Source: a virus
Strand: one strand, 5' to 3'
Virus record (IMG/VR): IMGVR_UViG_3300045911_000368
Location: 1-21,079 of that record
DNA length: 21,079 nucleotides
A program made the translations under genes and the position numbers. The notes beneath the pieces were generated by a model. It was not told the DNA's origin. It was given only the letters and a program-made list of their open reading frames with translations, and did not search any database. Below, piece by piece: positions 6,037-21,079 of the stretch (the first letter of the stretch is position 1; each line of letters begins with the position of its first letter).

Positions 6037-6076
6037 AGTTATCTCCTTTTAAGAAGTTGGCAGTTGAGCTCAAGCC

Positions 6077-6961
6077 TTAAACAGACTTGATACCTGCGAG
6101 GCGCTTCATGCTCTCAAGATGTTCATTTACTTGAGGGGCGTTCTGCTTGGTTACGTCATTACCAGTAATGACTGTGTTCTTTGATGTTGAGGCGCTTTCT
6201 GTCAGTGACTTGGCTGCAGGAGCAGCTTCATCTTCCTTGAGAATGCGGGCGATAAAAAACTTGTAGCTCTCTTCAAGACGGTCAGTATCAACATTCTTGA
6301 GAACCATGGCCATCTGCTCGCGCTTCTTGCCAGTAAGTGGAGCCAAAATCTTTTCCATTTTTGCTTCACGAACCATCTTAGCAACCTGTTGCTCAGATTC
6401 AGCGAGAGCTGCTTCTGCGTCTTGCAGTTTTTGCTGCATAACGGATAGCTTAGATTGCAGTGAATCTTCATCAACGTATGACTTAGAAAATTCGGTAACA
6501 AAAGCTTCAAAAATGCGGCGGCCAAACTCATTTTGCTTGACCACTTCTAGATCTTCTTTGAGTTCTTCCATTTCTGCTGTAAGACGCATCTCAAAGAATG
6601 CGTCAATTTTGTCGACCAGAGCATCTAGCTCTGATGCAACTTCTTCAGCGAGCTTGTGCTTTTCTTCCACTAGCTTCTCAGCATACTCTGCCTCGAGGTC
6701 GCGGAAACGCTCGATGTCGCCCTTTAGCTCAGCTAGTTCATTGGTGAGAGCCGCGGAGACGAAATCGTCAACCTTAGTTACCAACTCTTCACGCTCTGCG
6801 ATCCACTGCTCCGACAGCTGTAGACGAACTTCATTAGCTACCTCTTCACGCACTTGCGCTTTGTAGGCAGTCACTTGCTTGGTCCACTCTGCGGAGATTT
6901 CAGCTTTCGCTTCTTCGCTAAGCAACTCTGTTTCGAGCAGCTTCTTCAGGATTTCGTCCAT
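6077..6961 (-). CDS. 22: Prohead core scaffolding protein (T4 gp22-like)
   Basis: The 294-residue protein is almost wholly helical and very rich in Glu, Lys, Ala and Leu, with long coiled-coil stretches (about 1-215). It assembles the inner core on which the gp23 shell forms, and the gp21 protease later destroys it to peptides. Many (L/I)-x-E sites fit this fate, for example near the N-terminus (LLE, ISAE). The conserved gp22 region is LAPLTGKKREQMAMVLKNV at about 208-226, followed by YKFFIARIL. The C-terminus ends HLESMKRLAGIKSV, a usual ending for this family. A GGAG ribosome binding site precedes the ATG, and a perfect late-promoter box (7055-7062) lies about 95 bases upstream. Its place directly before gp23 is the standard T4-like order. 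Confidence 0.95.
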   Translation of the reverse strand: MDEILKKLLETELLSEEAKAEISAEWTKQVTAYKAQVREEVANEVRLQLSEQWIAEREELVTKVDDFVSAALTNELAELKGDIERFRDLEAEYAEKLVEEKHKLAEEVASELDALVDKIDAFFEMRLTAEMEELKEDLEVVKQNEFGRRIFEAFVTEFSKSYVDEDSLQSKLSVMQQKLQDAEAALAESEQQVAKMVREAKMEKILAPLTGKKREQMAMVLKNVDTDRLEESYKFFIARILKEDEAAPAAKSLTESASTSKNTVITGNDVTKQNAPQVNEHLESMKRLAGIKSV

Positions 6962-7023
6962 GCGTGTCTCCTTACTTATTAAACATCGACCATTATAGGT
7001 CGGTCTGCGAATTGCTTCAAGGT

Positions 7024-7087
7024 GTTTTCACAACTTGAAACTCTAACGTAAGCCTATTTATATAGGCGTCACGAAAACTTGTGAAAA
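7024..7087. repeat. Inverted repeat flanking the gp22 late promoter
   Basis: GTTTTCACAA at 7024-7033 faces TTGTGAAAA at 7079-7087, nine paired bases separated by 45 bases. The TATAAATA box lies inside the loop. It could be a protein-binding pair or a weak leader/terminator structure; the sequence does not decide. Confidence 0.45.
7055..7062 (-). promoter_or_regulatory. T4-type late promoter TATAAATA before gp22
   Basis: The minus strand reads TATAAATAGG, an exact match to the T4 late-promoter box. It lies between the gp67-like gene and gp22, giving a leader of about 85-90 bases to the gp22 ATG at 6961. It would allow extra transcription of gp22 and gp23. Confidence 0.75.
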
Positions 7088-7099
7088 ACCAACGCTTAT

Positions 7100-7294
7100 T
7101 TACTCTTTGTCATCGGAAGTTTCAAGCGCTGCCAACTCAGCGTCTAGATCGGCGTCAACTTCAGTTGAACCTCCAAGTCCAGAAACTTCACGTGTTTTAG
7201 CCACAAAGTAATCATGCATTGTCACTGTGGCTTGTTCAGTGCGGTCATGAATAATGTCATTTAGCACGCTCTTAAGCATTTCTTTACGGTCCAT
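7100..7294 (-). CDS. Small prohead core protein (gp67/gp68-like)
   Basis: The 64-residue peptide begins MDRKEMLKSVLNDIIHDRTEQA, then has MHDYFVAKTREVSGLGG and a very acidic tail (VDADLDAELAAL and EDDKE-like end). I recall this layout, with 'LKS.L..II.....QA...MH.YFV.K...V', from small prohead core proteins of cyanophage T4 relatives. In T4 gp67 and gp68 sit inside the core and are cleaved by gp21. Position agrees: it lies between gp22 and gp21, where the core genes map in T4-like genomes. A GGAG ribosome binding site stands ahead of the ATG. Whether it corresponds to gp67 or gp68 cannot be settled by eye. Confidence 0.75.
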   Translation of the reverse strand: MDRKEMLKSVLNDIIHDRTEQATVTMHDYFVAKTREVSGLGGSTEVDADLDAELAALETSDDKE

Positions 7295-7376
7295 TTTTAA
7301 CTCCTGTATGATTGGTCTTGCAGACTGTTTTTAGGCATTCCTGCTTCTACTAAAGCTGGAAGTTTTGGGAAGTTGA

Positions 7377-7994
7377 TTATTTTGTTCCTTTACGAATTGA
7401 TTCCAGCAGCTTAAAGATTTCCTTCTTGAAGTAGGCTTGTGCCTTCTTGTCATGTACAACTGCCTCTGCCAATGACATGACCTTCTTGTTGCCCATAGCT
7501 TCCATCACAGCATCAGGATACGCATTGGGGGCAGATGGCTGAGAAACAATATCCACTGTAGTGAAAACGAACCCACCAACTTGGCCACTCTCATTAACAT
7601 TGCCGGTTCCGCGTGATGAAACTCCAAGACGCACGCCGCCTTCAATTAGCGCCTTGGCAATATTGCCACATGGTGTATTAACTAACTTCATCTTGCCGAT
7701 AGCATTATTGCCATCCATGTGCATTTCAGTGATGACATGCGACACTCGATCAAGATTGATGGTCAGCGTATCTGGGTGATTGAGTTCACCGCAGATAGAA
7801 AAACCTTCCTTAATGCGCTTCTGTACTTCTTGAACAGCGTTGCTAATCTCTTCGAGTGGATATACTCTTCCATTACCATTCTTCAACTCTGCTTGCATCA
7901 TAATGCCGCGCAGATAAAGGTCGCCGCTCTTGCGCATCTCGCACAGAGAGGCAGCATTAGGTGTAAGATATTCACAAAGCAATTGAGTAGACAT
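7377..7994 (-). CDS. 21: Prohead maturation protease (T4 gp21-like)
   Basis: The 205-residue serine protease belongs to the T4 gp21 (herpesvirus-assemblin-like) class. It cleaves core and capsid proteins after (L/I)-x-E during head maturation. Visible blocks are LKNGNGRVYPLEEI at 37-50, the catalytic-histidine block CGELNHPDT with H73, and the catalytic-serine block GVRLGVSSRGTG with S126/S127. Downstream is VDIVSQPSAPNA, typical of the family. The C-terminal part (about 168-205) is basic and helical and may be removed on activation. A GGGAG ribosome binding site precedes the ATG and a perfect late-promoter box lies 29 bases upstream. Length is close to T4 gp21 (212 residues). It stands in its usual place between portal and core genes. 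Confidence 0.95.
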   Translation of the reverse strand: MSTQLLCEYLTPNAASLCEMRKSGDLYLRGIMMQAELKNGNGRVYPLEEISNAVQEVQKRIKEGFSICGELNHPDTLTINLDRVSHVITEMHMDGNNAIGKMKLVNTPCGNIAKALIEGGVRLGVSSRGTGNVNESGQVGGFVFTTVDIVSQPSAPNAYPDAVMEAMGNKKVMSLAEAVVHDKKAQAYFKKEIFKLLESIRKGTK

Positions 7995-8022
7995 TCACAC
8001 TCTCCCCACGGTATTCAAAAAG

Positions 8023-8030
8023 TATTTATA
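8023..8030 (-). promoter_or_regulatory. T4-type late promoter TATAAATA before gp21
   Basis: The minus strand reads TATAAATAC, exact to the T4 late box, about 29 bases upstream of the gp21 ATG at 7994. It sits in the 115-base gap between gp20 and gp21. Confidence 0.75.
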
Positions 8031-8031
8031 A

Positions 8032-8043
8032 TAATGCGCATTA
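8032..8043. repeat. 12-bp perfect palindrome TAATGCGCATTA beside the gp21 late promoter
   Basis: The palindrome is exact and lies one base upstream (in the direction of transcription) of the TATAAATA box. Such placement could mark a binding site for a dimeric protein. A second 12-bp palindrome with the same GCGC centre is at 12473-12484. Confidence 0.5.
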
Positions 8044-8109
8044 CTACATTGTCATTTCTTATAAATTTACGCGCTTCTAAAGGTAATGACAGTACAAGTT
8101 TATAGTGCA

Positions 8110-9798
8110 TCAAGAGGTTTGAGCAGGCGCAGGTGCTGGAGCAGGCTCAGGTGCTGGTGCTTCTTGCGTCTCTGCTTGAGCAGCCGGTTCTTCGCCGCCC
8201 CCAAAGAATCCGCCAATATCACCCTCTTGACCAAGTCCACCGCCAAGTGCATCACCGCCCTGCATTCCACCCTCTGGTGCATCAACGCTTACTGCCTCAC
8301 GGTTATCATAAACAGCAGGGTCATACATTTGCTGCAACGGAGGAACATTGGTGTTGTCAAGAATGCCGCGCTCTTCCTTAATCATTACCTCGTTCATCTG
8401 AATTTCATCATCAGTTAGACCAAGATAGCGCTTGAGAACAAAGCGACGAGACAGATACTTGACACCTTCAATATTGTTGAATGAACTAATAAGGTCAGCA
8501 TCAAGTGCTGCTTGGCGATAAGTTGCAAAGTTCGCTGGGTCAGGCAGGCGAATATTGAAGATTTCATCGTCAATGTTTAGTCCGCATACCTTTAGATAAA
8601 TCTTGAACTCCTCATCAAGCACATCATTTAGGCGATCCTGCAAACGCATTACGAACTTGGAGAATCGAAGTTCTTCAATGTACGCAATACCAACCTTACC
8701 ATCATTGTACTGCGCACCCTGCGCATCTTGGCCTACCATGTAAGAAGTTGGTACTCGTAGACCTCGGAAGATTTTTTCTTGGAAGTACTTGAGCAGATTA
8801 GTGCCAAAATCCTCTGTACCACCAGGCAAAGTTTCAACACGCGAACCTCTGCCGTTTGCCGTGACTGGGAAGAACATATCCTCTTGGATAGAAGTTGGGT
8901 CATACTGTCCATCAACTACATCTTTTTGACCATTATTGGACATACCAGGCACGCGTTTCTGCCGGATCTCATTCTTTACTTGTTCAAGATACTGCTTCAC
9001 CCGCTGTGCTGGCATGTTTCCAACATCAACATAGAACACACGTCTCTCAGGAGCCCGCACAATACGATAGATGATGACTGCATCTTCAATCATTGACAGT
9101 TGACGAAATACTCTAAAGATTGGGCGGAGCACTGATTGACCAAATGGGGCGCTGTCGCCCATGTCATCTGACATGGTGAAGTGAATCATCGCTGCTGCCG
9201 GAATAACTTCCATCTCCTCGTTTCGAGTGCCATAGGAAGTGGAGCCTTGCTTGCCTGGCTTACGAATGTGATAGTTTACAATGTTGCCAAGTTGATCGAT
9301 TTCGATACCATACACTAATTCAGGTGCAATATAAATCCACTTCCGCGTATCTGATACTTTACGGAAAAAGCAATCTCCATACTTTATCATTGTGCGCGCA
9401 ATTTGAAATAAACGCTGCTTAAATGTCTGTAGCTCACTCCACTGTCGCACAGCTTGACGCAGCGTAATTGCAGTGGTGTCACTTACATCTTGATTATCTT
9501 CCTTATGGTACTCAATGATAAATGGTAAGGACGTCTTTTCATCTCGCGTCGTCATTTCTTCTGCGATGATGTCAAGAGAGCGTGATACATCAATGTCTGC
9601 ATCCATCACATCATACTGCTTATATGAGCTAATGCGTGAGCCGGGCCCGCGCATAATCTGTCCATACCAAGTTACTGCAGATGAAATAGATGATAGGTCA
9701 GTCGAGTTAGGATTAAATGCATCTGTCGCAACAGTAGTATACATCTCCTTACGCGATGCGGGAGTGATAATCTTCCAGTAATTTTGCAACTGTGACAA
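8110..9798 (-). CDS. 20: Portal vertex protein (T4 gp20-like)
   Basis: The 562-residue protein forms the dodecameric DNA gate of the head. Family marks include SRSLDIIAEEMTT at about 73-85, IARTMIKYGDCFFRKV (about 146-161) and RIVRAPERRVFYVDVGNMPA (about 245-264) followed by a long helix with QVKNEIRQKR. RGLRVPTSYMVGQD comes further on. After about residue 515 there is a disordered tail rich in Gly, then Pro-Ala-Glu repeats (EAPAPEPAPAPAPAQTS), much like no part of T4 gp20. The start codon is TTG at 9798, chosen because an AAAGGAAG ribosome binding site lies just upstream. The gene follows the tape-measure-like gene by 15 bases, so they are likely cotranscribed. Length is near T4 gp20 (524 residues). 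Confidence 0.96.
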   Translation of the reverse strand: MSQLQNYWKIITPASRKEMYTTVATDAFNPNSTDLSSISSAVTWYGQIMRGPGSRISSYKQYDVMDADIDVSRSLDIIAEEMTTRDEKTSLPFIIEYHKEDNQDVSDTTAITLRQAVRQWSELQTFKQRLFQIARTMIKYGDCFFRKVSDTRKWIYIAPELVYGIEIDQLGNIVNYHIRKPGKQGSTSYGTRNEEMEVIPAAAMIHFTMSDDMGDSAPFGQSVLRPIFRVFRQLSMIEDAVIIYRIVRAPERRVFYVDVGNMPAQRVKQYLEQVKNEIRQKRVPGMSNNGQKDVVDGQYDPTSIQEDMFFPVTANGRGSRVETLPGGTEDFGTNLLKYFQEKIFRGLRVPTSYMVGQDAQGAQYNDGKVGIAYIEELRFSKFVMRLQDRLNDVLDEEFKIYLKVCGLNIDDEIFNIRLPDPANFATYRQAALDADLISSFNNIEGVKYLSRRFVLKRYLGLTDDEIQMNEVMIKEERGILDNTNVPPLQQMYDPAVYDNREAVSVDAPEGGMQGGDALGGGLGQEGDIGGFFGGGEEPAAQAETQEAPAPEPAPAPAPAQTS

Positions 9799-9813
9799 GA
9801 TACTTCCTTTTGT

Positions 9814-12465
9814 TTAAGCAGCTGGAATTGCTGCTAGCGGTTGATAGCGCCTTACAGTAAGCTCATTATTATCCATAAATGCAACTTTTCTAGGTGGTTC
9901 AACTTTCAGCATTTGCTCAAGTACTGCTAGCTGCTGCTTCATGATAATTAACTGCTCCTGCAATAGTGGGATCGCGTTGTTTGAATCTAGTTCAGATGTT
10001 TGAATTGCCTTTGAGCCTGTAGTCTGAACTGGTTTAGGTTCTGTTTTCTCTTCATTCTTATTTACTTCAGGGGCCTTTGGTCTTTGCAGGTTAGATACTG
10101 TATCGCTGGGTATTGCAATTTGAGTACCAACAGTTTCCCAAGCCTTTTTAATGCTATCAACAGCTGTAGATTGCACTGAGCTTGTAGCCTGAGAAATCTC
10201 TTGGTTTGCCTTTTTAGCCTGATTCTTAGCTTGTTCTTTCTGCTTTTGTTCAGCCTTACCGATAGTACGCAGGGTAGCGCCTTCAGTCTCCAACATTTTC
10301 TGACGCAGCTCTGACGACTTTATAATGCTGTCATCAATGGTTGCAGCCTTTTCTTTAAGTGCCTTTGCAAAAGGTGGGCTAACGCCAAACAATCCGCCCA
10401 CCTTCTCAAGCCCCCACGCTATACCCTTCATTATGACTGATATTAGTCTCTTGAAGAAATCGGTTAGAGTACTTGTTGCCATATCAACTAGTTTAGTAGT
10501 GTTGACTGTAAAATCAATTCCCAATCCCTCTAGCAGCCAATTGAGAGCACCATCAACTAGTCTGGTAATACCCGTAAAGATTCCATTGAAACCACCAATT
10601 ACCACGCCTAAGATGCGACCAAAGATACCATCGCCTAGTCCGAGTGCAGAGGCCATTTCTCCTGTGAAAGCCTCTTCAATTGCAGAAAAGATGAATGAGA
10701 GAGGACCACCTGCCTTAAAGACTCCCGCCACCTTAGAAAACCCTGCGGCTGCCACTTTATACACGTCATCTGCAAATGAAAGTACAGCAGTACTTTTGCC
10801 AAATGTTGAAGAAATATTCATTAGATTTCTTGCATAAGCAACTATTCCACTACCTCCAGAGGCGACAGCAGACCCAATATTCTTGATGCCCTGCAATAGA
10901 GAAGTGAATGCAGTTCTTAAGGCGCCACTTTCAATGAATGTCTTTAATTTTCCACCGGCGGTCGAGATAACATCAATGAATCCGCTTACTCCAGTACCTA
11001 CAGACTTTAATCCACTGGGAATGCCCTTGACTGCGTCCAAAACCAAAGTAAATGGCTTGAATAGCATTCCACTCAACTTAGAATTCATATCCATAGCAGA
11101 CTTCAGTATTCCTGCCCTATCGCCACCTGCGCCACCTGCAGTGGCTGCGCCCTTGCCAAATTTTTTCAACAGCATAAAAGTCGCAATACCGCCAAGCAAA
11201 GGCAGAGCTGCCTGAATAATCTGGTATAAAGGCGATTTTTGGAAGCCCTGCACAGCAGTTGCAAAGTGCCCCACCCATTGGCCAAAGACACCGACCTGAC
11301 TACCAAAGTCCGTATTAATCATAGGACCGCTTTCTTGGGCTGCTCTAGCCTTTCCTGATGACTCAAGCTGCTGTCTCTGCAGTGCCGTCATTTGGCTGAT
11401 AACTTGGTCCATCATATATTGAATTGCCAGGTTATTAGTGCCCTGCATAGACTGAATGCGCTGCTCGAGTTGGCCGCCTAATGCAAGAAAACGCCTATCC
11501 TCATCAGGAGTTCTGTTCTTCTTCATGAACAGTAACGCAAGTTCTTCTGTATCAGCAGCATTCATGCCTGTCATGGCGCCAGCCATTCGCGCCATACCCA
11601 TTGCTTTAAAGCGGTCTTCAACAGACGCACCCCTCTGCGCGAGTAGAGCTTCAGTGAGCTGCTGTGACTGCTGCGCAGTCATACCCAGCTGCCGGCCAAG
11701 TATGCCAGTTTGAATGAGCTGCTGCTGACGTGCAACCCTTTCCCGAGGAGCTAAACCAAGCAGCTGTGCCTGCACATGCTCATTTTCCATGACACCACGT
11801 GTTAGCTCCATAAAACCGTCAGCAGTGATACCCGTCACTTTACGCAGTTGAGTGAAGGCGGAAATCTGCTGGTCCATGACATTGTTCATGGCTGCCTGTG
11901 GAATACCTACTGCTGTTGCAGTAGTCATCATTGTGGCAGAGAACTGGCGGGCAGCTGGCCCGAAGACGCCTAATTCACCAAGAGCCTTAGTAGAATATTC
12001 TAGCCTCTTGTTGAATGCCTCCATTGAGGACGAGCGGGAAACAACTGTACCTGATTCATCAAGCAGCTTTGCGTATTCTTCTAATGACAAGCCAGCCTTC
12101 GCCGCGGCGAAGTACATGTCATACAGAGTTTGAGTTGCGCTGATGCCTCGTGCCTGTAGACGGAAGTAATCATCGCCAACTGTTCTTACAATGCCAACTA
12201 GATCAGTGAAGGCATTGTACAAAATCGTAGTTTTTCCCGAAAGCAATACAAAGTTTCTGCCAACTGAAGATGAACTAGATCCAAGTTCCATCAATAAATC
12301 AGTTGATTTTTTAGATGCCCTTTGTCTATTTGCTTCATCTCTGTCCGCGCCACCTGCGGCAGACCTAGGGCGTGGTCTGGTAGTACTATCGCGCAGCGTT
12401 GCCGATACTTCTGCAATAGTCCTTTCTAGACTTCGAAATATCCGCGCGAGATCTGAATCATCCAT
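9814..12465 (-). CDS. Large tape-measure-like tail protein
   Basis: The 883-residue protein has the usual make-up of tail tape measure proteins. The N-terminal third is long helices and heptads rich in Gln, Ala and Met (for example GMTAQQSQQLTEALLAQRG at 261-279). The middle is a chain of Gly-rich hydrophobic stretches: IIQAALPLLGGIATFMLL at about 416-433, and ILGVVIGGFNGIFTGIT near 618-634. The C-terminal part is charged coiled coil (KAEQKQKEQAKNQAKKANQ) and ends in a second Gln/Leu-rich helix. In T4 the tape measure is gp29, about 590 residues. Neighbours support a tail role: baseplate-hub genes gp26 and gp51 begin on the other side of the divergent promoter region. I cannot show homology to gp29. 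The ATG at 12465 has no clear ribosome binding site. Confidence 0.65.
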   Translation of the reverse strand: MDDSDLARIFRSLERTIAEVSATLRDSTTRPRPRSAAGGADRDEANRQRASKKSTDLLMELGSSSSSVGRNFVLLSGKTTILYNAFTDLVGIVRTVGDDYFRLQARGISATQTLYDMYFAAAKAGLSLEEYAKLLDESGTVVSRSSSMEAFNKRLEYSTKALGELGVFGPAARQFSATMMTTATAVGIPQAAMNNVMDQQISAFTQLRKVTGITADGFMELTRGVMENEHVQAQLLGLAPRERVARQQQLIQTGILGRQLGMTAQQSQQLTEALLAQRGASVEDRFKAMGMARMAGAMTGMNAADTEELALLFMKKNRTPDEDRRFLALGGQLEQRIQSMQGTNNLAIQYMMDQVISQMTALQRQQLESSGKARAAQESGPMINTDFGSQVGVFGQWVGHFATAVQGFQKSPLYQIIQAALPLLGGIATFMLLKKFGKGAATAGGAGGDRAGILKSAMDMNSKLSGMLFKPFTLVLDAVKGIPSGLKSVGTGVSGFIDVISTAGGKLKTFIESGALRTAFTSLLQGIKNIGSAVASGGSGIVAYARNLMNISSTFGKSTAVLSFADDVYKVAAAGFSKVAGVFKAGGPLSFIFSAIEEAFTGEMASALGLGDGIFGRILGVVIGGFNGIFTGITRLVDGALNWLLEGLGIDFTVNTTKLVDMATSTLTDFFKRLISVIMKGIAWGLEKVGGLFGVSPPFAKALKEKAATIDDSIIKSSELRQKMLETEGATLRTIGKAEQKQKEQAKNQAKKANQEISQATSSVQSTAVDSIKKAWETVGTQIAIPSDTVSNLQRPKAPEVNKNEEKTEPKPVQTTGSKAIQTSELDSNNAIPLLQEQLIIMKQQLAVLEQMLKVEPPRKVAFMDNNELTVRRYQPLAAIPAA

Positions 12466-12472
12466 TGTGGGT

Positions 12473-12484
12473 CAAAGCGCTTTG
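12473..12484. repeat. 12-bp perfect palindrome CAAAGCGCTTTG in divergent promoter region
   Basis: The palindrome is exact and lies 8 bases upstream of the tape-measure-like ATG, between two divergent genes. It could be an operator or a leader hairpin that hides the translation start. Its GCGC core and position near a late box parallel the palindrome at 8032-8043. Confidence 0.5.
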
Positions 12485-12509
12485 GGGCTCAAGTAAATAG
12501 TATAGTCTG

Positions 12510-12517
12510 TATTTATG
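12510..12517 (-). promoter_or_regulatory. Late-promoter-like box CATAAATA
   Basis: The minus strand reads CATAAATAC about 45 bases before the ATG at 12465, one base away from TATAAATA. It would drive the tape-measure-like gene and gp20. The plus strand of this 67-base region has only a weaker AGTAAATA at 12492-12499 for gp26. Confidence 0.5.
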
Positions 12518-12532
12518 TAAGAGTGAAATCAC

Positions 12533-13303
12533 ATGCAAACCTCAAATCCGCTACTGCAACAGCTTAAGCTACCAGGTCGTACCTTTCAGCTTCCATCAAG
12601 GGGCGCTCTATATCAAGATGGCGAGATTTCAAATGCAGATGGAGAGGTACATGTGCATCCACTATCTGCGCTTACTGAAATTTCTCTAAAAAACCCAGAC
12701 TTGCTTTTCAATGGTAAAGCCCTTGAACAAGTGTGCGCAGAGTGTGTTCCAGACATAAAGAAGCCATTGCAGTTATATGGTCGTGACATTGATGCTCTGA
12801 TGTTCTTTATTCGGCTCGTGACATATGGGCCAGAGTTTCAAGTTACATACAAACACACATGCGAGCATGCTAAGCAGCACAGCTATGTCATTGACATTGA
12901 AAAAATGGTACAGGAGATTAAGCCACTTGACCCAACTATTGACTATACTGTAACACTGCCTAATGGTCAGCGGGTAAAGCTTCAACCTATTAAGTTCGAA
13001 CACATCATTAAGATGTACCAGATGAATGCTGGTAAGAAGGAACTTGAGATGGAAGACATGAAGCAAAACATTCTGTTTAACATGCAGGGCATGATTCACA
13101 GCGTAGATGATGTAGTTGATAGAGAATTCATTAAGGAATGGTGTAGCAAGTTAACCACTCCATACCAGATGCGCATCACTGAGATGGCAGAGAAGATGAA
13201 TAATTGGGGCCCGCGTAGTTCTGCAATCTTAAAATGCAAGGATTGCGGTGAAGAAGTAGATGTAGAACTTCCTCTTAATCCAATCAGTTTTTTCACAGAA
13301 TGA
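12533..13303 (+). CDS. 26: Baseplate hub subunit (T4 gp26-like)
   Basis: The 256-residue protein matches the T4-type baseplate protein family of gp26. Marks: LPGRTFQLPSRGALYQDGE at 13-31, GEVHVHPLSALTEISLKNPD at 37-56, LLFNGKALEQV, then the ends of the conserved half KKPLQLYGRDIDALMFFIRLVTYG. The middle carries TYKHTCEHAKQH and the C-terminus a half zinc-ribbon-like CKDC (about 235-238), so a bound metal is possible. In T4, gp26 belongs to the hub assembly pathway. It is somewhat longer than T4 gp26 (208 residues), as in cyanophage relatives. Its last bases overlap the ATG of the gp51-like gene (ATGA), the expected order for these two genes. The ribosome binding site (AAGAGTG) is modest. It is transcribed away from the tape-measure-like gene. 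Confidence 0.88.
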   Translation: MQTSNPLLQQLKLPGRTFQLPSRGALYQDGEISNADGEVHVHPLSALTEISLKNPDLLFNGKALEQVCAECVPDIKKPLQLYGRDIDALMFFIRLVTYGPEFQVTYKHTCEHAKQHSYVIDIEKMVQEIKPLDPTIDYTVTLPNGQRVKLQPIKFEHIIKMYQMNAGKKELEMEDMKQNILFNMQGMIHSVDDVVDREFIKEWCSKLTTPYQMRITEMAEKMNNWGPRSSAILKCKDCGEEVDVELPLNPISFFTE

Positions 13304-13524
13304 TCATCTCAGGAGAGGCGAGTAGGATCTCTGAGATGATCAATCTGATGGCAAAAGATGTTCGAAGCCTACTCAATCTAGCGATAGAAATCGCTTATTT
13401 CTCAAGAGGGTCAATTGGATATTATGATGTGCTAAAAATGACGCCGCTCGAAAGAGATCTAGCGGTGTCATTCATTAACAAAAGATTGGAAATTGCCGCA
13501 AAGTCTCCATTTCCAGTGTATTGA
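13300..13524 (+). CDS. 51: Baseplate hub assembly catalyst (T4 gp51-like)
   Basis: The 74-residue protein contains the short motif shared by gp51-type proteins: IAYFSRGSIGYYDVLKMTPLE at about 30-50, then FINKRLE. The pattern 'F.SRG...Y.D...M...ER......K' is what I recall for cyanophage gp51 downstream of gp26. T4 gp51 is longer (249 residues) and helps hub assembly without ending up in the particle. The ATG overlaps the gp26 stop by four bases and has no ribosome binding site of its own, so translation is probably coupled to gp26. After it comes a 168-base gap to a convergent gene, in which I see only an imperfect hairpin near 13554-13578 and no clear terminator. Confidence 0.75.
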   Translation: MIISGEASRISEMINLMAKDVRSLLNLAIEIAYFSRGSIGYYDVLKMTPLERDLAVSFINKRLEIAAKSPFPVY

Positions 13525-13692
13525 GTGATTACTAAACCAACTTTAGGAATTGTCAGTCTGGTGAATTCATCACGACTGGAGTAAACGTAATCGTACTCAT
13601 TTTTAACACCGCTCAAATGGAATTTATTCGCGTTATTTTTCTAGACTGGTGGGCGCGCCTATTTGCAAGCTAATGCTGTTAAATTATCGCCA

Positions 13693-14904
13693 CTAAGCTG
13701 TAAGCTTAATACCAACCGCTTCTACTATCCTGTCTAGGTCATCTAAGTACCGCTGCGGCAAGCCATCAATGCCATCATGCATCATAATGCCATGACGGTC
13801 GACTTCTTCCCAGATGGCATATCGAGCGGCTCTTTCCCATTCAAAGTATGTTCTGAAGACTAACTTTCGATTGGTCCGGGTCGCTTTTAGGTGAAGGTAA
13901 CTGCGGCATACTTGCTTTTTTGCTAGGACAAACTGCTTTGCTACTTTGTTTAACCTATCGCCTATTACTTTTATAGCATCATCGGTTAAGTAAGGCACGG
14001 CTGACCTAATCAGCTGCGCCGCTTCTGAAAATCTTGCTCCACTCTTTAGAATTTGTGCTGAAATACTGGAGCCATTAGATAGTGACATGATAATATTTTT
14101 GATGAGCTTCTCAGTGTCATCATTCCATGGCAGCTGAAGATCCGTTTCACAAATCTTTTTTCTCCATTCAATCTTATTTTCTACTAGCTGCTGTAGATCA
14201 GGAAATAGCGCGGCAATTGTGCTAGATGAATAGACTTGCTGGATGCGGCTTAATAAGAACTGTGCGTAGGCAGCATCAATGTCGATACCTGGCCCAAATA
14301 GCTCTTCTCGCAGCCATCGGGGCCATGCCTGTACGTTGGCAATTGGCCATACAGAGGTATCTCGCTGCTGTAGTTTGCCAGTCGGCTGAAAGACGAAGTT
14401 GACTTCAGATCTAGCAAGAAGCCAGTTGACGGGCGCTACTAGATCAAATCTGCCAGTTTGTGTTAGCTTGCTCCGGATATCAGCTGCACGCTCTTGCCTA
14501 ATAAAGACTTTTGAGACAATGCCATCTGGTCTAGGTGGCGGTTGATATACCAACTGTATATCATCTATGCATAGAGTATCTACATCTTTAGGAATGAGTT
14601 CGGTGATATCAGCATTATTAGATGAGACATTAAACCCCAACTGCTTGACCTCAAAGAAGTAATCTAGCACTGGTCGAAAATCATAGACAAAGTTGCGCAG
14701 CTCTACAAGACTTAACTTGATACTGCAGAATGCTCTTGGTAAACCAGTACTTAGTGAGGCACGATGTAAAGCTGCTAGATACAGAATGAGAGCCTGCCTA
14801 TCCCTCATTCTAGCCGCATGAGCCCTTTGAGGTTTATAGAAGCGGCTTACATGCAGGGGATGCGATGCAGGCAGTTGCTGCTTCAACTCTGTAAGGTAAA
14901 GCAC
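13693..14904 (-). CDS. Unknown 403-residue protein with polymerase-palm-like motifs
   Basis: I do not recognise the family by name. Three spaced motifs recall DNA/RNA polymerase palms: GIDIDAAYAQFLL at 206-218 (motif A-like, D208/D210), EKLIKNIIMSLSNGSS at 265-280 (motif B-like, K266/K269 and NG), and GIMMHDGIDGL at 372-382 (motif C-like, H376-D377). The A-to-C distance of 166 residues is close to that of family A enzymes. Before motif C comes a helix with FEWERAARYAIWEEV. The N-terminal 200 residues show no exonuclease or primase motif that I can name. The start is GTG at 14904, five bases after the stop of the upstream gene; no ribosome binding site is obvious and an internal ATG (residue 33) is possible. 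It closes a compact operon with an Hjc-like nuclease. A replication role is inference. Confidence 0.6.
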   Translation of the reverse strand: MLYLTELKQQLPASHPLHVSRFYKPQRAHAARMRDRQALILYLAALHRASLSTGLPRAFCSIKLSLVELRNFVYDFRPVLDYFFEVKQLGFNVSSNNADITELIPKDVDTLCIDDIQLVYQPPPRPDGIVSKVFIRQERAADIRSKLTQTGRFDLVAPVNWLLARSEVNFVFQPTGKLQQRDTSVWPIANVQAWPRWLREELFGPGIDIDAAYAQFLLSRIQQVYSSSTIAALFPDLQQLVENKIEWRKKICETDLQLPWNDDTEKLIKNIIMSLSNGSSISAQILKSGARFSEAAQLIRSAVPYLTDDAIKVIGDRLNKVAKQFVLAKKQVCRSYLHLKATRTNRKLVFRTYFEWERAARYAIWEEVDRHGIMMHDGIDGLPQRYLDDLDRIVEAVGIKLTA

Positions 14905-14908
14905 GGCA

Positions 14909-15139
14909 TCAAGTGGCGCGGGCTGCCTTCTTAAGCGACTTGTAAATGCCCTTTAGACTGTCAGGGCGAACCATTATCTGCCAAGACTTCAATGGCTGGC
15001 CTTCTGCGACTTCTTGGAACTTCTTGTCATGGACTTTCGCGATATATCCATCTTGCTTAATATCCTTACCTTGTTCTGCAAGAGTAGTTGCTAGACCCAT
15101 GGATGCTTTGCGAAGGCGCTTTGCTTGTTTCTGATTCAT
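14909..15139 (-). CDS. Small basic protein of unknown function
   Basis: I choose the ATG at 15139, which overlaps the upstream stop as ATGA and has an AGGA ribosome binding site about 8 bases before it; this gives 76 residues. The frame is open to an ATG at 15184, but that would overlap the preceding gene by nearly 50 bases without better signals. The protein is basic, with MNQKQAKRLRKASMG at the start and YKSLKKAARAT at the end, and a middle part PLKSWQIMVRPDSLKG. Basic small proteins of this kind often bind nucleic acid, but no known fold is visible. It stands between the 199-residue protein and the 403-residue palm-like protein and is probably translated with both. Confidence 0.65.
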   Translation of the reverse strand: MNQKQAKRLRKASMGLATTLAEQGKDIKQDGYIAKVHDKKFQEVAEGQPLKSWQIMVRPDSLKGIYKSLKKAARAT

Positions 15140-15735
15140 GCGTAGATTCCTGCGTAGCGTGGATTTAACTGAGTGTCTGCCCAATCAGGAATATATCCTA
15201 ACCATTGCTTAAAAAATAACACCTCCCACTTGTTGGCAGATGGTGTACCAAGCTGTGAGAGCTTAGGTCTGACAATGATAAATGGAAACTGTTCCGGCTG
15301 ACGAAGTCCTTTTACTATAAGCGGTGTTTGAATATGGGTTATGTGTATTACTGTATCATTAGACCCGCTCGTCTCAATGCTAAAGGCAGGTAGAGGAAGT
15401 TGAATAGAATGAATGACAGACGGGTGCGGTTTAGGCAGGGAGCGAAGACCTTTGGTCTGCTCGCAAAACTTTACTAGGCTGTTGATAAATGCCATGTAGG
15501 TAAAATCGTTGATACTGCCTTGACGAATAACCGCTTTTAGTTGTTCTTTTGTTGGCGCGATGTAGGGAAGTTTGCTGCCACGCTGTTTAGCATTGTATGG
15601 GCCAAGAAAGGCATCTGCCTGTGAGTGCAATCTAAAGTGATGATTCACTAGGCTGATAAGGTCACTAAAGCCCGGGTTGACAGCTGGGCGAAAAGCATCA
15701 AGGCGAACACTCCACCGAGGAAGACTAGATTCCAT
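15136..15735 (-). CDS. Unknown 199-residue protein
   Basis: I do not recognise this protein. The N-terminal half is helical and rich in His, Phe and Ser, with SLVNHHFRLHSQADAFLGP near 28-46 and a probable helical bundle around 60-95 (EQLKAVIRQGSINDFTYMAF). The C-terminal half looks beta-structured (VIHITHIQTPLIVKG, then FPFIIVRPKLSQLGTPSANK at about 149-168) and ends with a Trp-rich segment. No Walker, nuclease or zinc motif is evident. Its stop shares ATGA with the next gene, and the stop of the Hjc-like gene lies 12 bases before its ATG with a GAGG ribosome binding site in between, so it is part of a tight operon. The company of a resolvase-like nuclease and a palm-like protein suggests a replication or recombination role, by inference. 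Confidence 0.65.
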   Translation of the reverse strand: MESSLPRWSVRLDAFRPAVNPGFSDLISLVNHHFRLHSQADAFLGPYNAKQRGSKLPYIAPTKEQLKAVIRQGSINDFTYMAFINSLVKFCEQTKGLRSLPKPHPSVIHSIQLPLPAFSIETSGSNDTVIHITHIQTPLIVKGLRQPEQFPFIIVRPKLSQLGTPSANKWEVLFFKQWLGYIPDWADTQLNPRYAGIYA

Positions 15736-15747
15736 GATTGTAAAACC

Positions 15748-16362
15748 TCAGTATTTAGAAAACCAAAAGGCGGTATGTGGAAGCAGATCATCTAGCTCAT
15801 AGATGTCAAGACTATGACGTCCGCCAGCATCGTGCCCGTATTTGAGCAGCGTGATGCGGGGCTTGACGCCTGCAGCGGTCAAGATGGTGTAGTCGGACTT
15901 GCTGTCCATCGTGTCAACTGCAACAAAGATAGGAGTGTGATTCCATTTCCAAATTAGCATTGGGCTTTTATCAACCTTTGAAGCATCGTCCACTGCTTCT
16001 CTAAACCACTTGAAAAGGTTAGAAGTACCGCTCATTAGAGACGTAAAGGAGTCCGGCGTTGAATAGAACTTGCATTCGATTGAATGATGGAACTTGAGAC
16101 CTTCCTGTTGTTCATTCACAGGTACAACATCGCCAACAAAGATTTTAAGTGCATCGGCGCCAAACATCTTACCGATGGTCTCAAAGTTCTTACCACCAAC
16201 TCTAGCACCTGAACCAGGGGTGCGAATAAAGTTGAGCGGCTGAAGTGCTGCACTGAGCTTCTTAGCAACGGTGCCTTCAAAGCCGTTTCCTTTTCCCTTT
16301 GAATTGAAGCGCTTTTTGCGGGTGCTGCTTTTATTATCAGCAACAGCAGCGGGCAAGGTCAT
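15748..16362 (-). CDS. Hjc-like PD-(D/E)XK nuclease (probable Holliday junction resolvase)
   Basis: The 204-residue protein has the layout of archaeal Hjc-type and phage resolvase-like nucleases. There is a basic N-terminus (KSSTRKKRFNSKGKGNGFEG) with E29 in the GFEG block, an RTPGSGAR loop at 47-54, GDVV with D78, and IECK with E96 and K98. E...D...ExK is the catalytic set of the PD-(D/E)XK fold, which cuts branched DNA with magnesium. The remaining 100 residues hold LFKWFREAVDDA and MLIWKWNHTPIFVAV, common as the rest of the core. T4 itself uses a different resolvase (gp49), so this could replace or supplement it. The ATG has AGGA seven bases upstream. It begins the operon that continues into the 199-, 76- and 403-residue genes. 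Confidence 0.78.
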   Translation of the reverse strand: MTLPAAVADNKSSTRKKRFNSKGKGNGFEGTVAKKLSAALQPLNFIRTPGSGARVGGKNFETIGKMFGADALKIFVGDVVPVNEQQEGLKFHHSIECKFYSTPDSFTSLMSGTSNLFKWFREAVDDASKVDKSPMLIWKWNHTPIFVAVDTMDSKSDYTILTAAGVKPRITLLKYGHDAGGRHSLDIYELDDLLPHTAFWFSKY

Positions 16363-16998: not shown

Positions 16999-18954
16999 CT
17001 ACTCAACCACCACTGAACTAAATCCAGATTCCTTGCGTATAATCAAGTTCCTGTCCAACCGACCAGTGATGCTAGGATGATGGCTGATGACGAAGATGCT
17101 CATATTTTCATCACGGCTCTTCTCTTTGAGAACTCTGACAACTGCGTCAATGCCATTCTGGTCAAGCGCACCATCCAACTCGTCAATCAAAAGCAGATTG
17201 GTCTTGGCGTGTAGATGATGCAGAACATCACGAAAGGCGAGCGCTAGACTAGTATTGACTCTTTTCTTTTCACCTGCTGATAGGTTACCAAAGTCCAATT
17301 CTCTTCCAAATTCTGACACTGTGCAACTCATATCAGAATCAAACTTCACAATATGCGGTAGACCTAGAGTGCGCGTGAAGTGATTGATACGCGCATTGAG
17401 AAATGGTATTGTTTGGTTGATGATGCGCCGCCGCAAAAATGAGTTCTTGTCAGTAAGCAGTTTGAGCAGAAAGTTTTGGTGCTCAAGTCGCTTCCTCAGC
17501 TCATCAACCTTCTTGGTATCTACCGCTTCAATTTTTTCAGCCTGCAGTTCACGCAGGGCCTCTTCATGGGGATTAACCGCTGCCTTTAGTTGTTCTAGCC
17601 GTGTCTTAAGTGAAGCAGCATTATCACGTGCCTTGAGCAAATCATCTAGGTCATTATGTTGAATTGCCGCGCTTACCTCGGACAGCTTTGCTTTCTTTTC
17701 TCGTGTCTGTGATTCTAGAACTTCTATGTCTTGTTCAAGTTCTATGAGTATTGCGCCTTTATTCTCAATGATCTGCTGTACAGCAGATAACCGCTGCTGC
17801 GCATCTGCATAATTCTGTAAACAGTATGGGCACTTAGCGTCTCTGAGGTGTTCTTCCTCACTCATTAGCTTTTCCAGCTCTTTATTCAGCTGCTGTAAGT
17901 CCTTCTTCTTAGGAGCTAACTTGACAGCTAAGTAAGCTCCCTCTTGCTGAAGCTTAGAGCGTTCGTTATGCAGAAGTTTTTCAGCATCAAAATCAATTGA
18001 CTGCAGTGTCTTTAGGGTAGACTCAATCTCAGCAATGTCACTAGCTGTTTGAGCTTGCCAGCGGCTTACTCTCTGCTCTGCTTCTTTTACGTGCTTGGCA
18101 TGTAAGTCGATCATGACCTGCTGCTGCGCGCAGACAGCCTCAGCTATCTTAATATCATTTTCTGTAGCCCTAATTTTCTCCTTAAGCAGCTGAGCCTTTT
18201 GCGACAGCATAGTAATGTTGAAGAGTTCCTCAATTTGAGTTCTTTGCTGATGAATAGGCAGCTGTAGAAAGGCAGGTGAGTTACCAGAGAAAATAATCGT
18301 CTTGGTAAATAGCTCATAGCTGATGCCAATAATCTCCTCAATAAGAGCATCGCATTCTGTCACGCTCTTACCTGGCGTGATATCTTCGGCGTCTCTCTTC
18401 AATTCAATACGGTACTCCTCGCCTCTAGCACGATAGATCTCATACTCAACGCCGCCCTTCTCAAAAATGAGACGCACCTCCATCAAGGTGTTCTTGGCAG
18501 CATTGGTGCTGTTGATAAGTCGGTTGAGGCTAATGTTGTCAAATGGCTTGTTGTACAGCGCATAACAGATGGCGTTGATGATGGTTGTGTTATGGGACAA
18601 AAAACCATTAGAGAAGTAACGGTGATCAGGGCTATCAACAGAAACGTCAAACATCTCAACCTGTTCCTGAAGATCCATGACTGAAGTGACGGTTTCAATC
18701 CCATCAACAGTTAGTATTTGATCGCCAGGCACAAGGTCTTTTGCGAATGTCTGAACTAGTCCCTCTTTGAAAAGAATATGATTATCAGCGCATTTAATGG
18801 CTCGATTTGCCGTAGTGACTTGAAACCCGGCGTATGGCACTGTTTTAGCGATAGCAGTTACTGGATGCCAGCCAGTGTCAGTTTCAATCTCAATATCAGA
18901 TAGTGAGACAATGTCTGAAAACTTGCGCCTTATGAGTTCAGAAAGTTCCTGCAT
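16999..18954 (-). CDS. 46: gp46 C-terminal part carrying the C-half of a split intein (IntC + C-extein)
   Basis: The 651-residue protein has two parts. Residues 1-122 are intein: a block-B-like region (FQVTTANRAIKCADNHILF, H59), a block near LVPGDQILTVDG, and the C-terminal block FDVSVDSPDHRYFSNGFLSHN with catalytic H121-N122. The extein starts at T123 as TTIINAICYALYNKPF, the continuation of a P-loop. Residues 123-651 are the rest of gp46, an SMC/Rad50-like nuclease subunit: a coiled coil with a zinc-hook CPYC, an ABC signature LSAGEKKRVNTSL, Walker B LLLIDELDGALD and the ISHH switch. Without trans-splicing the ATPase lacks its Walker A half and could not bind ATP. Spliced to the N-part it gives 579 residues, near T4 gp46 (560). 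The ATG at 18954 overlaps the endonuclease gene by 25 bases and has only a weak ribosome binding site. Confidence 0.92.
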   Translation of the reverse strand: MQELSELIRRKFSDIVSLSDIEIETDTGWHPVTAIAKTVPYAGFQVTTANRAIKCADNHILFKEGLVQTFAKDLVPGDQILTVDGIETVTSVMDLQEQVEMFDVSVDSPDHRYFSNGFLSHNTTIINAICYALYNKPFDNISLNRLINSTNAAKNTLMEVRLIFEKGGVEYEIYRARGEEYRIELKRDAEDITPGKSVTECDALIEEIIGISYELFTKTIIFSGNSPAFLQLPIHQQRTQIEELFNITMLSQKAQLLKEKIRATENDIKIAEAVCAQQQVMIDLHAKHVKEAEQRVSRWQAQTASDIAEIESTLKTLQSIDFDAEKLLHNERSKLQQEGAYLAVKLAPKKKDLQQLNKELEKLMSEEEHLRDAKCPYCLQNYADAQQRLSAVQQIIENKGAILIELEQDIEVLESQTREKKAKLSEVSAAIQHNDLDDLLKARDNAASLKTRLEQLKAAVNPHEEALRELQAEKIEAVDTKKVDELRKRLEHQNFLLKLLTDKNSFLRRRIINQTIPFLNARINHFTRTLGLPHIVKFDSDMSCTVSEFGRELDFGNLSAGEKKRVNTSLALAFRDVLHHLHAKTNLLLIDELDGALDQNGIDAVVRVLKEKSRDENMSIFVISHHPSITGRLDRNLIIRKESGFSSVVVE

Positions 18955-20133
18955 TTTTCAATTGTTCCAATTGGGTCAAGTTTATAGTCTGATTCCCAGA
19001 CTATGAGAAGTTCGTAACCTAATGCAATCAAAGATTGGTGGCGCTCTTCGTCGAGTTTCCATTTCTCTTCTGCTGTACAATATTTGCCCTTTCCTGCAAA
19101 AATTTTATAGTCTGCAGGGTATTTCTTCGGGTTTGCGTGCCAATAGTCTCCATAAAATTCAATTAATTTATTGCCTAAGGAAAAATCTATCATTGCAGAT
19201 TTATTATCATTTAGTTTGATCATCATTTCGCCTAAATTTGTTGGGCTTTTCTTTCCCCAACGTGCTCCAGGACAATCTAACTTCTGAAATAAATCTAATG
19301 AGATAGAAGATAATCCATTCCTATACACTTTTCGCTGATTGATTTCTTCCTGTTCTTCAAATGTCTTTGCCTTTAATGTTGCCTGCCATTTATCCTGCCT
19401 TTCTTTCCAGCGCCTAGTTCCTTCATCGTGCCCGTGCTTCTTCACTAACTCACTTAACGAAAATGTTGCCTGCGCTTCAGACAGCAAGCGCTTTGCTGTT
19501 TCTTCATCATAGCCCCTAACCAAGTAATAACCGAGCGTTCGAGTTGCATACTTGCTATTTCTAGTGTTACCATTTCGGTTATTTTTATCCTTGGCGACAT
19601 TTGCCAATTTCTCGGCTTCTTCGACAGGATAACCTTTCTCCATCCAGTATTCTTTTCTAATTGGGCGAATACTGTTTCTTTTGTACTCGGCTTCTTCTAA
19701 AGTGTAATACGAGCCAGTGTTAGGGTTTATCTTGCTTAACCAATGTTCTACGCCAAATGGAGATTTGATCTTGTCAGTCTTTCTAACACCTGCAAGCTTA
19801 CGCTCTCTTGCTTTCAATGTAGCTTCTTCTGGGCTCCAGCCACGCTGCAACCAATACTTTTGATAGGTCTGCGGGACAGCCGAGAACCTACCGAGGTGAT
19901 CACTTACGATCTTTGCGGCTATGCTCTTGTTTAGATGTTCGGTGTTTTCCAACTTTGACTTTAGATCTTTGACGAGATTGGGGTGCAGATCAACATATCG
20001 AGCTAACGTTTGCTCAATTATCTGCTCCCTTGTGTGCTTCCATCTGCCTTGCAAGCTCATATAATTCTCCAAGTGATACCTGTCTTGTAACACCTTTTAC
20101 TCTAATATTGATACGAGTTTCAGGATAAAGGCA
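18589..20133 (-). mobile_element. Split intein with free-standing homing endonuclease in the gp46 P-loop
   Basis: This span covers the whole inserted element: IntN (codon 51 of the N-part, TGC at 20133, to the stop at 20014), the endonuclease gene, and IntC (18954 to the AAC codon at 18591-18589). The insertion point is exactly between the Lys and Thr codons of GSNGSGK/TT. The first intein residue is Cys, the last two are His-Asn, and the first C-extein residue is Thr, all compatible with a class 1 splicing mechanism. Total intein protein is 39 plus 122 residues, about the size of a mini-intein. The break lies between blocks A and B rather than at the usual endonuclease position between B and F. 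Confidence 0.9.
18930..20060 (-). CDS. Free-standing homing endonuclease, Vsr-like (EDxHD type)
   Basis: I start this 376-residue protein at the ATG at 20060, which has GGAG six bases upstream; an earlier in-frame ATG at 20093 lacks such a site. The N-terminal two thirds hold three copies of a probable DNA-binding repeat: YWLQRGWSPEEA (about 69-80), YWMEKGYPVEEA (about 138-149) and YYLVRGYDEETA (about 178-189). After them comes KKHGHDEGTRRWKERQDKW. The C-terminal domain resembles Vsr-like nucleases: NLGEMMIK (E278), MIDF (D292), EFYGDYWHANP (D305, H308), a helix with DEERHQSLIALGYELL and VWESD (E356, D358). This is the catalytic layout of the homing nuclease family found in fractured genes with split inteins. 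The gene is visibly richer in AT than gp46 (16 G+C in the 60 bases at 19141-19200). It overlaps IntN by 47 bases and IntC by 25 bases, and probably cuts uninterrupted gp46 alleles. Confidence 0.88.
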   Translation of the reverse strand: MSLQGRWKHTREQIIEQTLARYVDLHPNLVKDLKSKLENTEHLNKSIAAKIVSDHLGRFSAVPQTYQKYWLQRGWSPEEATLKARERKLAGVRKTDKIKSPFGVEHWLSKINPNTGSYYTLEEAEYKRNSIRPIRKEYWMEKGYPVEEAEKLANVAKDKNNRNGNTRNSKYATRTLGYYLVRGYDEETAKRLLSEAQATFSLSELVKKHGHDEGTRRWKERQDKWQATLKAKTFEEQEEINQRKVYRNGLSSISLDLFQKLDCPGARWGKKSPTNLGEMMIKLNDNKSAMIDFSLGNKLIEFYGDYWHANPKKYPADYKIFAGKGKYCTAEEKWKLDEERHQSLIALGYELLIVWESDYKLDPIGTIEKCRNFLNS

Positions 20134-20283
20134 CTTTCCAGAACCGTTGGAGCCCCCCTGGTCCATGTTTTCGCCAGTTACTGTGACTGTGCCCTGATCA
20201 GCAAGTTCAATTTGCTGAGCTTGATTTCCGAATGAGAGGAAGTTTCTCAGTTCGATTGTTTTGAAGGTGAATGGTACACTCAT
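20014..20283 (-). CDS. 46: gp46 N-terminal part fused to the N-half of a split intein (N-extein + IntN)
   Basis: The 89-residue protein begins with the N-terminus of a Rad50/SbcC-like ATPase: FKTIELRNFLSFGNQAQ, then TVTVTGENMDQGGSNGSGK, which is the Walker A loop up to its Lys (residue 50). Residue 51 is Cys and opens an intein: CLYPETRINIRVKGVTRQ is block A, followed by VSLGELYELARQ. The protein stops at residue 89, so the intein half is only 39 residues. Alone it has no ATPase function; its role is to be joined to the C-part by protein trans-splicing. The ATG overlaps the gp47 stop as ATGA, the normal T4 gene order 47-46, so it is translated with gp47. The last 47 bases also encode the start of the endonuclease. 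A sequencing frameshift is unlikely, because intein motifs lie on both sides and the middle encodes a separate complete protein. Confidence 0.92.
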   Translation of the reverse strand: MSVPFTFKTIELRNFLSFGNQAQQIELADQGTVTVTGENMDQGGSNGSGKCLYPETRINIRVKGVTRQVSLGELYELARQMEAHKGADN

Positions 20284-21079
20284 GATAGTTCCTCATACAG
20301 CTTAACCAACGTTGCTGGATCAATGGTCGGTGAGGGCGCGACGCCCTCATTGATCAGCCTGCGAACAGTGTTGTCGAGTGATGATAGATCAATCTCACCA
20401 TCTATCACCAGGCCTTCAGCAAGCTGTTCCTGTCTAGCGCTGATGTCCTCCTCAACTGAGAACTCACGAAGGTTCAGAGTTTTTACCATCTCGTCTCTTA
20501 GCGCCTGTACATCACTATAACCAATGTCAATATCCAACACACACCTCACGCGGCTCTTTGCCGGAAAATTTATGTCACCAGCGAGAACGCTGCTCAAGCG
20601 GGTCTTGAAGAACAGAGGAGCGTCGTCCCAGTTGTGAAACCAGACATCTTCAGTTTCAACATCAAAGACCGCGCAGCCCCTTTCAGCGTCACCGGCGTCA
20701 CCGAAGTTGGTCGGAAACGTGTTGCCGATGTAGATGATGTTCTTGTTTGTTTGTCTCTTGTGAAAGTGACCACTGAAGATAAACTTTGGACCACTAAAGG
20801 CGGCGGCATCAGGCCCATGCTCCATTCGGCGGTCGGCGCCAGTCACCACAAAGTCACGAAATTCAAAGTGCCCAAGAACATACCTATGAGAGTTGATGGC
20901 CGCCACCTGTGCTGGATACTCATCTCTAAACAGATATGGAACCGCATAGAAGTTTCTTGTCAGTGACATTGGCTCATTGATTAGAATGAAATTGTCAAGG
21001 TCATTGAAGATATCAGTTGAGAAGATGTTCCGATTGGATCGATGATACAGGTCGTGGTTCCCAATAATGAAAAAGACTG
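20280..21079 (-). CDS. 47: gp47-like recombination nuclease subunit (Mre11/SbcD type), 5' end outside window
   Basis: The frame is open to the right edge of the window, so the N-terminus is missing; about 266 C-terminal residues are visible. The first of these read VFFIIGNHDLYHRS, where GNHD is the third metallophosphoesterase motif. It continues with an internal Met (20969), then YVLGHFEF and FSGHFHKRQ, the GHxH metal-binding motif. The rest is the capping and gp46-binding part, ending LVKLYEELS. With gp46 it forms the Mre11/Rad50-type complex that resects DNA ends for phage recombination and host DNA degradation. The ATG seen at 20969 is not the start. The stop overlaps the gp46 N-part start by four bases (ATGA), which should keep the two subunits in balance. 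Confidence 0.92.
   Translation of the reverse strand, partial: VFFIIGNHDLYHRSNRNIFSTDIFNDLDNFILINEPMSLTRNFYAVPYLFRDEYPAQVAAINSHRYVLGHFEFRDFVVTGADRRMEHGPDAAAFSGPKFIFSGHFHKRQTNKNIIYIGNTFPTNFGDAGDAERGCAVFDVETEDVWFHNWDDAPLFFKTRLSSVLAGDINFPAKSRVRCVLDIDIGYSDVQALRDEMVKTLNLREFSVEEDISARQEQLAEGLVIDGEIDLSSLDNTVRRLINEGVAPSPTIDPATLVKLYEELS

Follow-up and report, generated by a model that had tools for sequence, protein, structure and literature searches.

The fractured-gene layout, P-loop inteins placed between Lys and Thr, and atypically split TerL inteins are all already known. Fractured genes in phage-like environmental DNA, with split intein halves and Vsr-like endonucleases, were reportedly described by Dassa et al. 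in 2009. Among the atypically split TerL inteins, excerpts of PMC11766414 give AceL-TerL (25 + 104 residues), GOS-TerL (37 + 115) and Cat-TerL (30 + 104), and insertion at Lys|Thr of the P-loop is on record in excerpts of PMC5050341 for the TerL1-a inteins of mycobacteriophages. In a cultured jumbo phage, Pseudomonas phage MIJ3, PolB carries a split intein with an HNH endonuclease, and this is the only split intein in the excerpted passages of that paper (PMC6892783). Here we describe a split intein in gene 46 of IMG/VR virus record IMGVR_UViG_3300045911_000368, a stretch of 21,079 bases hereafter called the window. It is very probably a mobile fractured-gene element in a large T4-type phage, in which gp46 would be made by protein trans-splicing and the element spread by homing.

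Along the minus strand, the window carries a partial gp47 gene, the N-terminal half of gp46, an endonuclease open reading frame (ORF) and the C-terminal half of gp46, arranged in overlapping succession. The first gp46 ORF (20014-20283(-), 89 amino acids) consists of 50 residues of gp46 followed by CLYPETRINIRVKGVTRQVSLGELYELARQMEAHKGADN and a stop codon, while the second (16999-18954(-), 651 amino acids) opens with 122 residues of intein ending in FLSHN and continues into 529 residues of gp46 starting TTIINAICYALYNKPF. A first-pass annotation, made by a model from the letters of the window, had read the same anatomy, with one gene ending in GSNGSGK plus the block A cysteine of an intein and then a stop, a later gene passing from FLSHN through TT into the rest of gp46, and a complete endonuclease gene between the two, and every part of it is present. 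The inserted DNA (20133-18589, 1,545 bp) lies exactly between the Walker A lysine and threonine (GSNGSGK|TT); rejoining the flanks restores GSNGSGKTT in a gp46 of 50 + 529 = 579 residues, the length previously claimed. The break is just as exact in the SbcC-like profile phrog_77, of which position 333 ends the first ORF and position 334 opens the second: the N-extein matches positions 296-333 (E 1.8e-06), and the C-extein, which has an ABC signature and a Walker B motif near its end, matches positions 334-953 (E 5.6e-80). Most fractured relatives also break at 333|334. The identification of the gene as a T4-type, Rad50-like gene 46 stands on this full-length profile match together with the adjoining gp47 gene. 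The latter lies immediately upstream of gp46, as in T4-type phages, with its stop codon sharing ATGA with the gp46 start; it also matches Metallophos at E 0.008, under that model's cut-off. A frameshift or readthrough restoring a single frame is ruled out, as the N- and C-terminal intein parts (IntN and IntC) are separated by 1,059 nt holding a separate ORF.

With the C-terminal ORF as query, a first scan returned 35 related IMG/VR loci. In 32 of these the frame runs without a gap across the junction codon (GK|T), and the comparison with uninterrupted relatives proposed by the first-pass annotation thus finds the junction exact; the remaining three (L015, L016 and L034) have a split intein at the same codon. 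In these three, IntN ends in KEKS and a stop, and an IntC beginning MHQLSD follows after 30 nt, without an endonuclease gene. The nearest intact relatives, L002 and L003, are 83% identical to the window over the C-extein, within a range of 49-83% among relatives; the N-extein has 42-73% amino-acid identity with the start of gp46 in intact relatives. Several of the intact relatives come from contigs 230-370 kb long, which makes it probable that the window derives from a large phage. The gene 46 intein is not isolated: including those of the window and L015, 29 distinct IntC sequences occur in gp46 of uncultured phages. Judged on these sequences, the agreement of junction, relatives and second occurrences is far beyond chance.

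The window is a metagenomic contig of 21 kb, and a chimera of strains, or a decaying gene with an intact copy elsewhere, might produce broken frames of this kind. We find such an origin hardly credible. The architecture is common to dozens of other fractured genes, the frames are open and under purifying selection, and a locus from another metagenome, L121, repeats the order of N-extein, IntN and endonuclease. Misassembly in particular is very unlikely, with L121 repeating the side of the N part and endonuclease, and L015, like L016 and L034, repeating the split at the same codon. By profile search, nine fractured records contained no second copy of gp46, only the two pieces.

The identity of the intein was supported by both profile and fold. 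Against the PDB, the IntC profile matched VidaL (6vgv; E 1.8e-09), with positions 21-122 pairing with VidaL 42-141, and also gp41-1, NrdJ-1 and a DnaX intein. An AlphaFold model of the window IntC, with a mean predicted local distance difference test score of 90, matched VidaL 6vgv in Foldseek (E 5.1e-08, template modelling score 0.78, root-mean-square deviation 1.1) and likewise resembled gp41-1, the atypically split Cat intein and many others. The Pfam intein model scored 19.3 on the window ORF, below its cut-off of 35.8. All splicing residues are intact, namely Cys1, block B His59, His121, Asn122 and the +1 Thr; His59, His121 and Asn122 are invariant among 28 family members, and the +1 residue is Thr or Ser in members that occupy P-loops. 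The split intein that had been proposed in the Walker A motif is therefore upheld and, going by its sequence, can be refined to an atypically split one (39 + 122 residues), with a short IntN, a long IntC and the split near the intein N terminus.

Could the two gp46 fragments instead associate as separate subunits around a dead intein, with no splicing? Expression from separate ORFs would be compatible with this, and the NrdA of a phage, reported to be split in this way by a homing endonuclease, offers a precedent (cited in excerpts of PMC10448857). We nevertheless judge it very improbable: the break between the Walker A Lys and Thr leaves neither half with a nucleotide site, the splicing residues are intact in both the window and the L015 lineage despite only 48% identity between their IntC regions, and the ratio of nonsynonymous to synonymous divergence (dN/dS) of IntC is about 0.04-0.19 in related gp46 inteins.

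If gp46 is instead made by trans-splicing, the 39-residue intein tail of its N half would associate with the 122-residue intein head of the C half. By established intein chemistry, Cys1 would undergo an N-S shift, the +1 Thr would attack, and Asn cyclisation and ligation of Lys50 to Thr would follow; excision would rebuild Walker A within the 579-residue protein. Unspliced gp46 should not bind ATP, because the P-loop Lys and Thr sit on separate proteins, and active gp46 would depend on splicing. The endonuclease, for its part, would act on co-infecting phages whose gene 46 lacks the intein, cutting that gene at the P-loop codons, and the element would be copied in as the cut is repaired. The features involved are collected in Table 1. 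Elsewhere in the window, at 4678-16362, are T4-like head genes (major head protein, maturation protease and portal), a baseplate hub-like gene and a RusA-like resolvase gene.

Table 1. Coordinates of the fractured gene 46 and adjoining features in the window
Feature	Position	Strand	Basis or remark
gp47 (SbcD/Mre11-like), partial	20280..21077	-	phrog_100, E 1.1e-35
gp46 N-extein, 50 aa, ends GSNGSGK (Walker A through Lys)	20134..20283	-	ORF translation, phrog_77
IntN, 39 aa + stop, Cys1 (block A)	20014..20133	-	95.8% nt identity in L121
Free-standing Vsr-like endonuclease gene, 376 aa	18930..20060	-	predicted class; alternative GTG at 20093
IntC, 122 aa: block B His59 (CADNH), block F, block G ending FLSHN	18589..18954	-	profile, Foldseek
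gp46 C-extein, 529 aa + stop, begins TT (+1 Thr, remainder of Walker A)	16999..18588	-	phrog_77

The endonuclease ORF encodes 387 residues from the GTG (18930-20093(-)) and 376 from an ATG at 20060, which is most likely the start, since GGAG lies 7 nt before it. The gene overlaps the IntN stop by 47 nt at its start and the IntC start by 25 nt at its stop; because of the latter overlap, the IntC ORF may be translated by coupling. The sequence EFYGDYWH is a candidate Vsr-type motif, and a Foldseek search with the full-length protein returned nothing informative outside the catalytic end. Among 31 members of the endonuclease family, 17 match Pfam MTES_1575 and 10 match DUF559 at E <= 0.01. The endonuclease tree places those from 23 fractures of gene 46 in a single group (90/97; one change; recovered in 92% of bootstrap trees), with the window endonuclease inside a starred set (98/92) together with the gp46c endonucleases, and its N-terminal ~45 residues align by BLAST with gene-46 endonucleases only. 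On the strength of this grouping and the shared N-terminal alignment, we infer that the endonuclease tracks its target gene.

Evidence for movement of the element came from L121, where the contig spans the N-extein and IntN and runs out only after most of the endonuclease. At the DNA level, L121 and the window are 95.8% identical in IntN and 94.2% in the endonuclease, versus 72.0% in the N-extein and 72.6% in gp47, and synonymous divergence (dS) is 0.22 for the endonuclease and 2.4 for the N-extein. With 94-96% identity in the element against about 72% in its flanks, recent lateral transfer is indicated, and the best reading of the pair is that a functional element passed between phages that had already diverged. 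The same disparity recurs in other lineages, where IntC dS is well below C-extein dS in most of the gp46 pairs tried (0.01 vs 0.82 for L061/L076, 0.42 vs 3.22 for L045/L049 and 0.35 vs 1.62 for another pair), and the two values are closer in two pairs (0.81 vs 1.15 and 1.59 vs 1.73). Purifying selection is evident from the sequences on the endonuclease (dN/dS 0.10 across 295 codons compared with L121) and on the IntC of relatives. In L121, gp47 and the fractured gp46 are also separated by a GIY-YIG endonuclease-like ORF (3049-3798(-)) that runs on the strand opposite to theirs.

Several observations weigh against a trans-spliced, homing element. The ribosome-binding site at the IntC start is weak, and no highly identical second copy matches the C-part side of the window. 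All fractured records are fragments, and an intact second gp46 could lie elsewhere in these genomes. The Vsr-like fold assignment of the endonuclease is sub-threshold: the window protein matches Pfam MTES_1575 at E 2.6e-04, below cut-off, its PDB match to Vsr is weak (E about 0.2), and so are its Foldseek matches to 1cw0 (prob 0.69, E 0.39) and I-Bth0305I 3r3p (prob 0.66, E 0.89).

The window intein belongs to a wider family. A second scan, with IntC as query, returned 223 relatives, of which 80 were kept, and host genes were profile-checked for examples of each type. Its P-loop branch comprises split inteins at GK|T or GK|S in gp46, TerL, a gp41/DnaB-like helicase, a ClpB-like AAA+ protein, UvsW and others; in UvsX the fracture point falls slightly earlier within the same motif. 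IntN is mostly ~31-50 residues plus a stop, behind which comes either ~1 kb containing an endonuclease ORF or just a short gap (L015, L059, L094 and L114). TerL also holds related inteins at Walker B and in its nuclease domain. The nearest isolate IntC regions among the matches listed are contiguous TerL mini-inteins of Ackermannviridae, with ~45% identity and the same Lys|Thr position; none of the matches listed is a gp46 intein in an isolate.

In the IntC tree, the gp46 label requires 6 changes, with the window and L015 near the uvsX/uvsW inteins and L114 (gp46) paired with L086 (TerL) on a starred branch. However, an approximately unbiased test did not reject a single clade of gp46 inteins (p 0.112), and we therefore do not claim repeated jumps of the intein from gene to gene. 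In L132 and L145, gp46-type endonucleases are joined to distant inteins of the TerL Walker-B/nuclease group, which suggests reassortment of endonuclease and intein, on branches that are long. We tentatively propose, with more doubt than conviction, that one atypically split intein family has moved among non-homologous phage nucleoside triphosphatases (NTPases; gp46, UvsX, UvsW, gp41, TerL, a ClpB-like protein and probably PhoH), always at Walker A, while its endonucleases diverged into gene-specific lineages that can pair with different inteins. The element may even be tied to the timing of its own spread, since the targets gp46/47, UvsX, UvsW and gp41 are the recombination machinery that homing uses.

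Individual members of the family show further arrangements. Pseudomonas phage PA5oct (L200; NC_071039.1, 134722-137728) has uvsX fractured in the P-loop: gp276 ends AGESG followed by CLPETAKVKIRLSKKQS, gp275 is a related Vsr-like endonuclease, and gp274 (UvsX) starts with IntC. In an uncultured phage (L203; LR756500.1, 36944-44002 reversed), a PIN-PhoH-like gene is apparently fractured at the P-loop (VLTGKAG|CLYPDEKIKIYKM), its N piece being followed by a related endonuclease ORF and then an IntC-bearing ORF. Vibrio phage VP-1 (L038; MH363700.1) has an annotated terminase ORF with a P-loop mini-intein and then GIY-YIG-like sequence; the rest of TerL lies in the next ORF after a second IntC-like stretch (5167-5487), the gene seemingly being broken twice. 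The contig of L069 (G014, 69,897 bases) has six IntC-profile matches, including fractured gp41 and gp46-like genes, and related split inteins in this phage could cross-splice.

Three of the short-gap members, L015, L059 and L114, bear on why the intein is kept. In them the gap replaces the endonuclease gene, so that the locus itself can no longer drive homing, yet the split intein is still there. Slow or conditional trans-splicing that times active gp46/47 during infection would account for this and would add to, not replace, homing and trans-splicing. As precise loss is hard in an essential gene, retention needs no such benefit, and we think a regulatory role unlikely.

If gp46 is trans-spliced, the phage's recombination nuclease gains a nucleotide site only once two separate proteins have come together and been spliced. 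The gene that the element occupies encodes a possible participant in the recombination on which homing depends, gp46/gp47 being listed as such in excerpts of PMC2988022. With one motif, many NTPases and endonucleases sorted by gene, target-gene switching by homing elements becomes testable, and the family gives protein engineering a large new supply of natural split inteins whose N parts are short and whose +1 residue is Thr or Ser. A literature search, over partial texts and with the 2009 fractured-gene list outside its coverage, found no intein in gp46, phage Rad50 or SbcC, in agreement with the earlier remark that none was known in gene 46. Within the literature found, gene 46 as host, a shared intein family in the P-loops of TerL, gp41, ClpB-like proteins, UvsX and UvsW, and endonucleases sorting by target gene are new.

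As in the layout reported by Dassa et al. 2009, the host gene of the window is divided between two ORFs, each carrying an intein half where the gene is broken, with a free-standing endonuclease gene in between; what sets the window apart is gene 46 as the probable new host and an intein split near its N terminus. The 39 + 122 division also differs from that of gp41-1, which has the common ~100 + 40 split. A short IntN and a long IntC are shared with the atypical TerL inteins and VidaL, the nearest solved structure, though the window intein resides in gp46 with a +1 Thr at Lys|Thr, whereas the atypical TerL inteins have a +1 Cys (excerpts of PMC11766414). The Lys|Thr position itself is that of the Ackermannviridae TerL mini-inteins (annotated in phage Maynard, KF669654) and of mycobacteriophage TerL1-a (excerpts of PMC5050341), but these form one continuous polypeptide within TerL, in contrast to the fractured gp46 of the window. 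Lastly, the MIJ3 fracture lies in PolB with an HNH endonuclease (excerpts of PMC6892783) and that of the window in gp46, while the uvsX fracture of PA5oct, a close relative of MIJ3, belongs to the window's own intein family.

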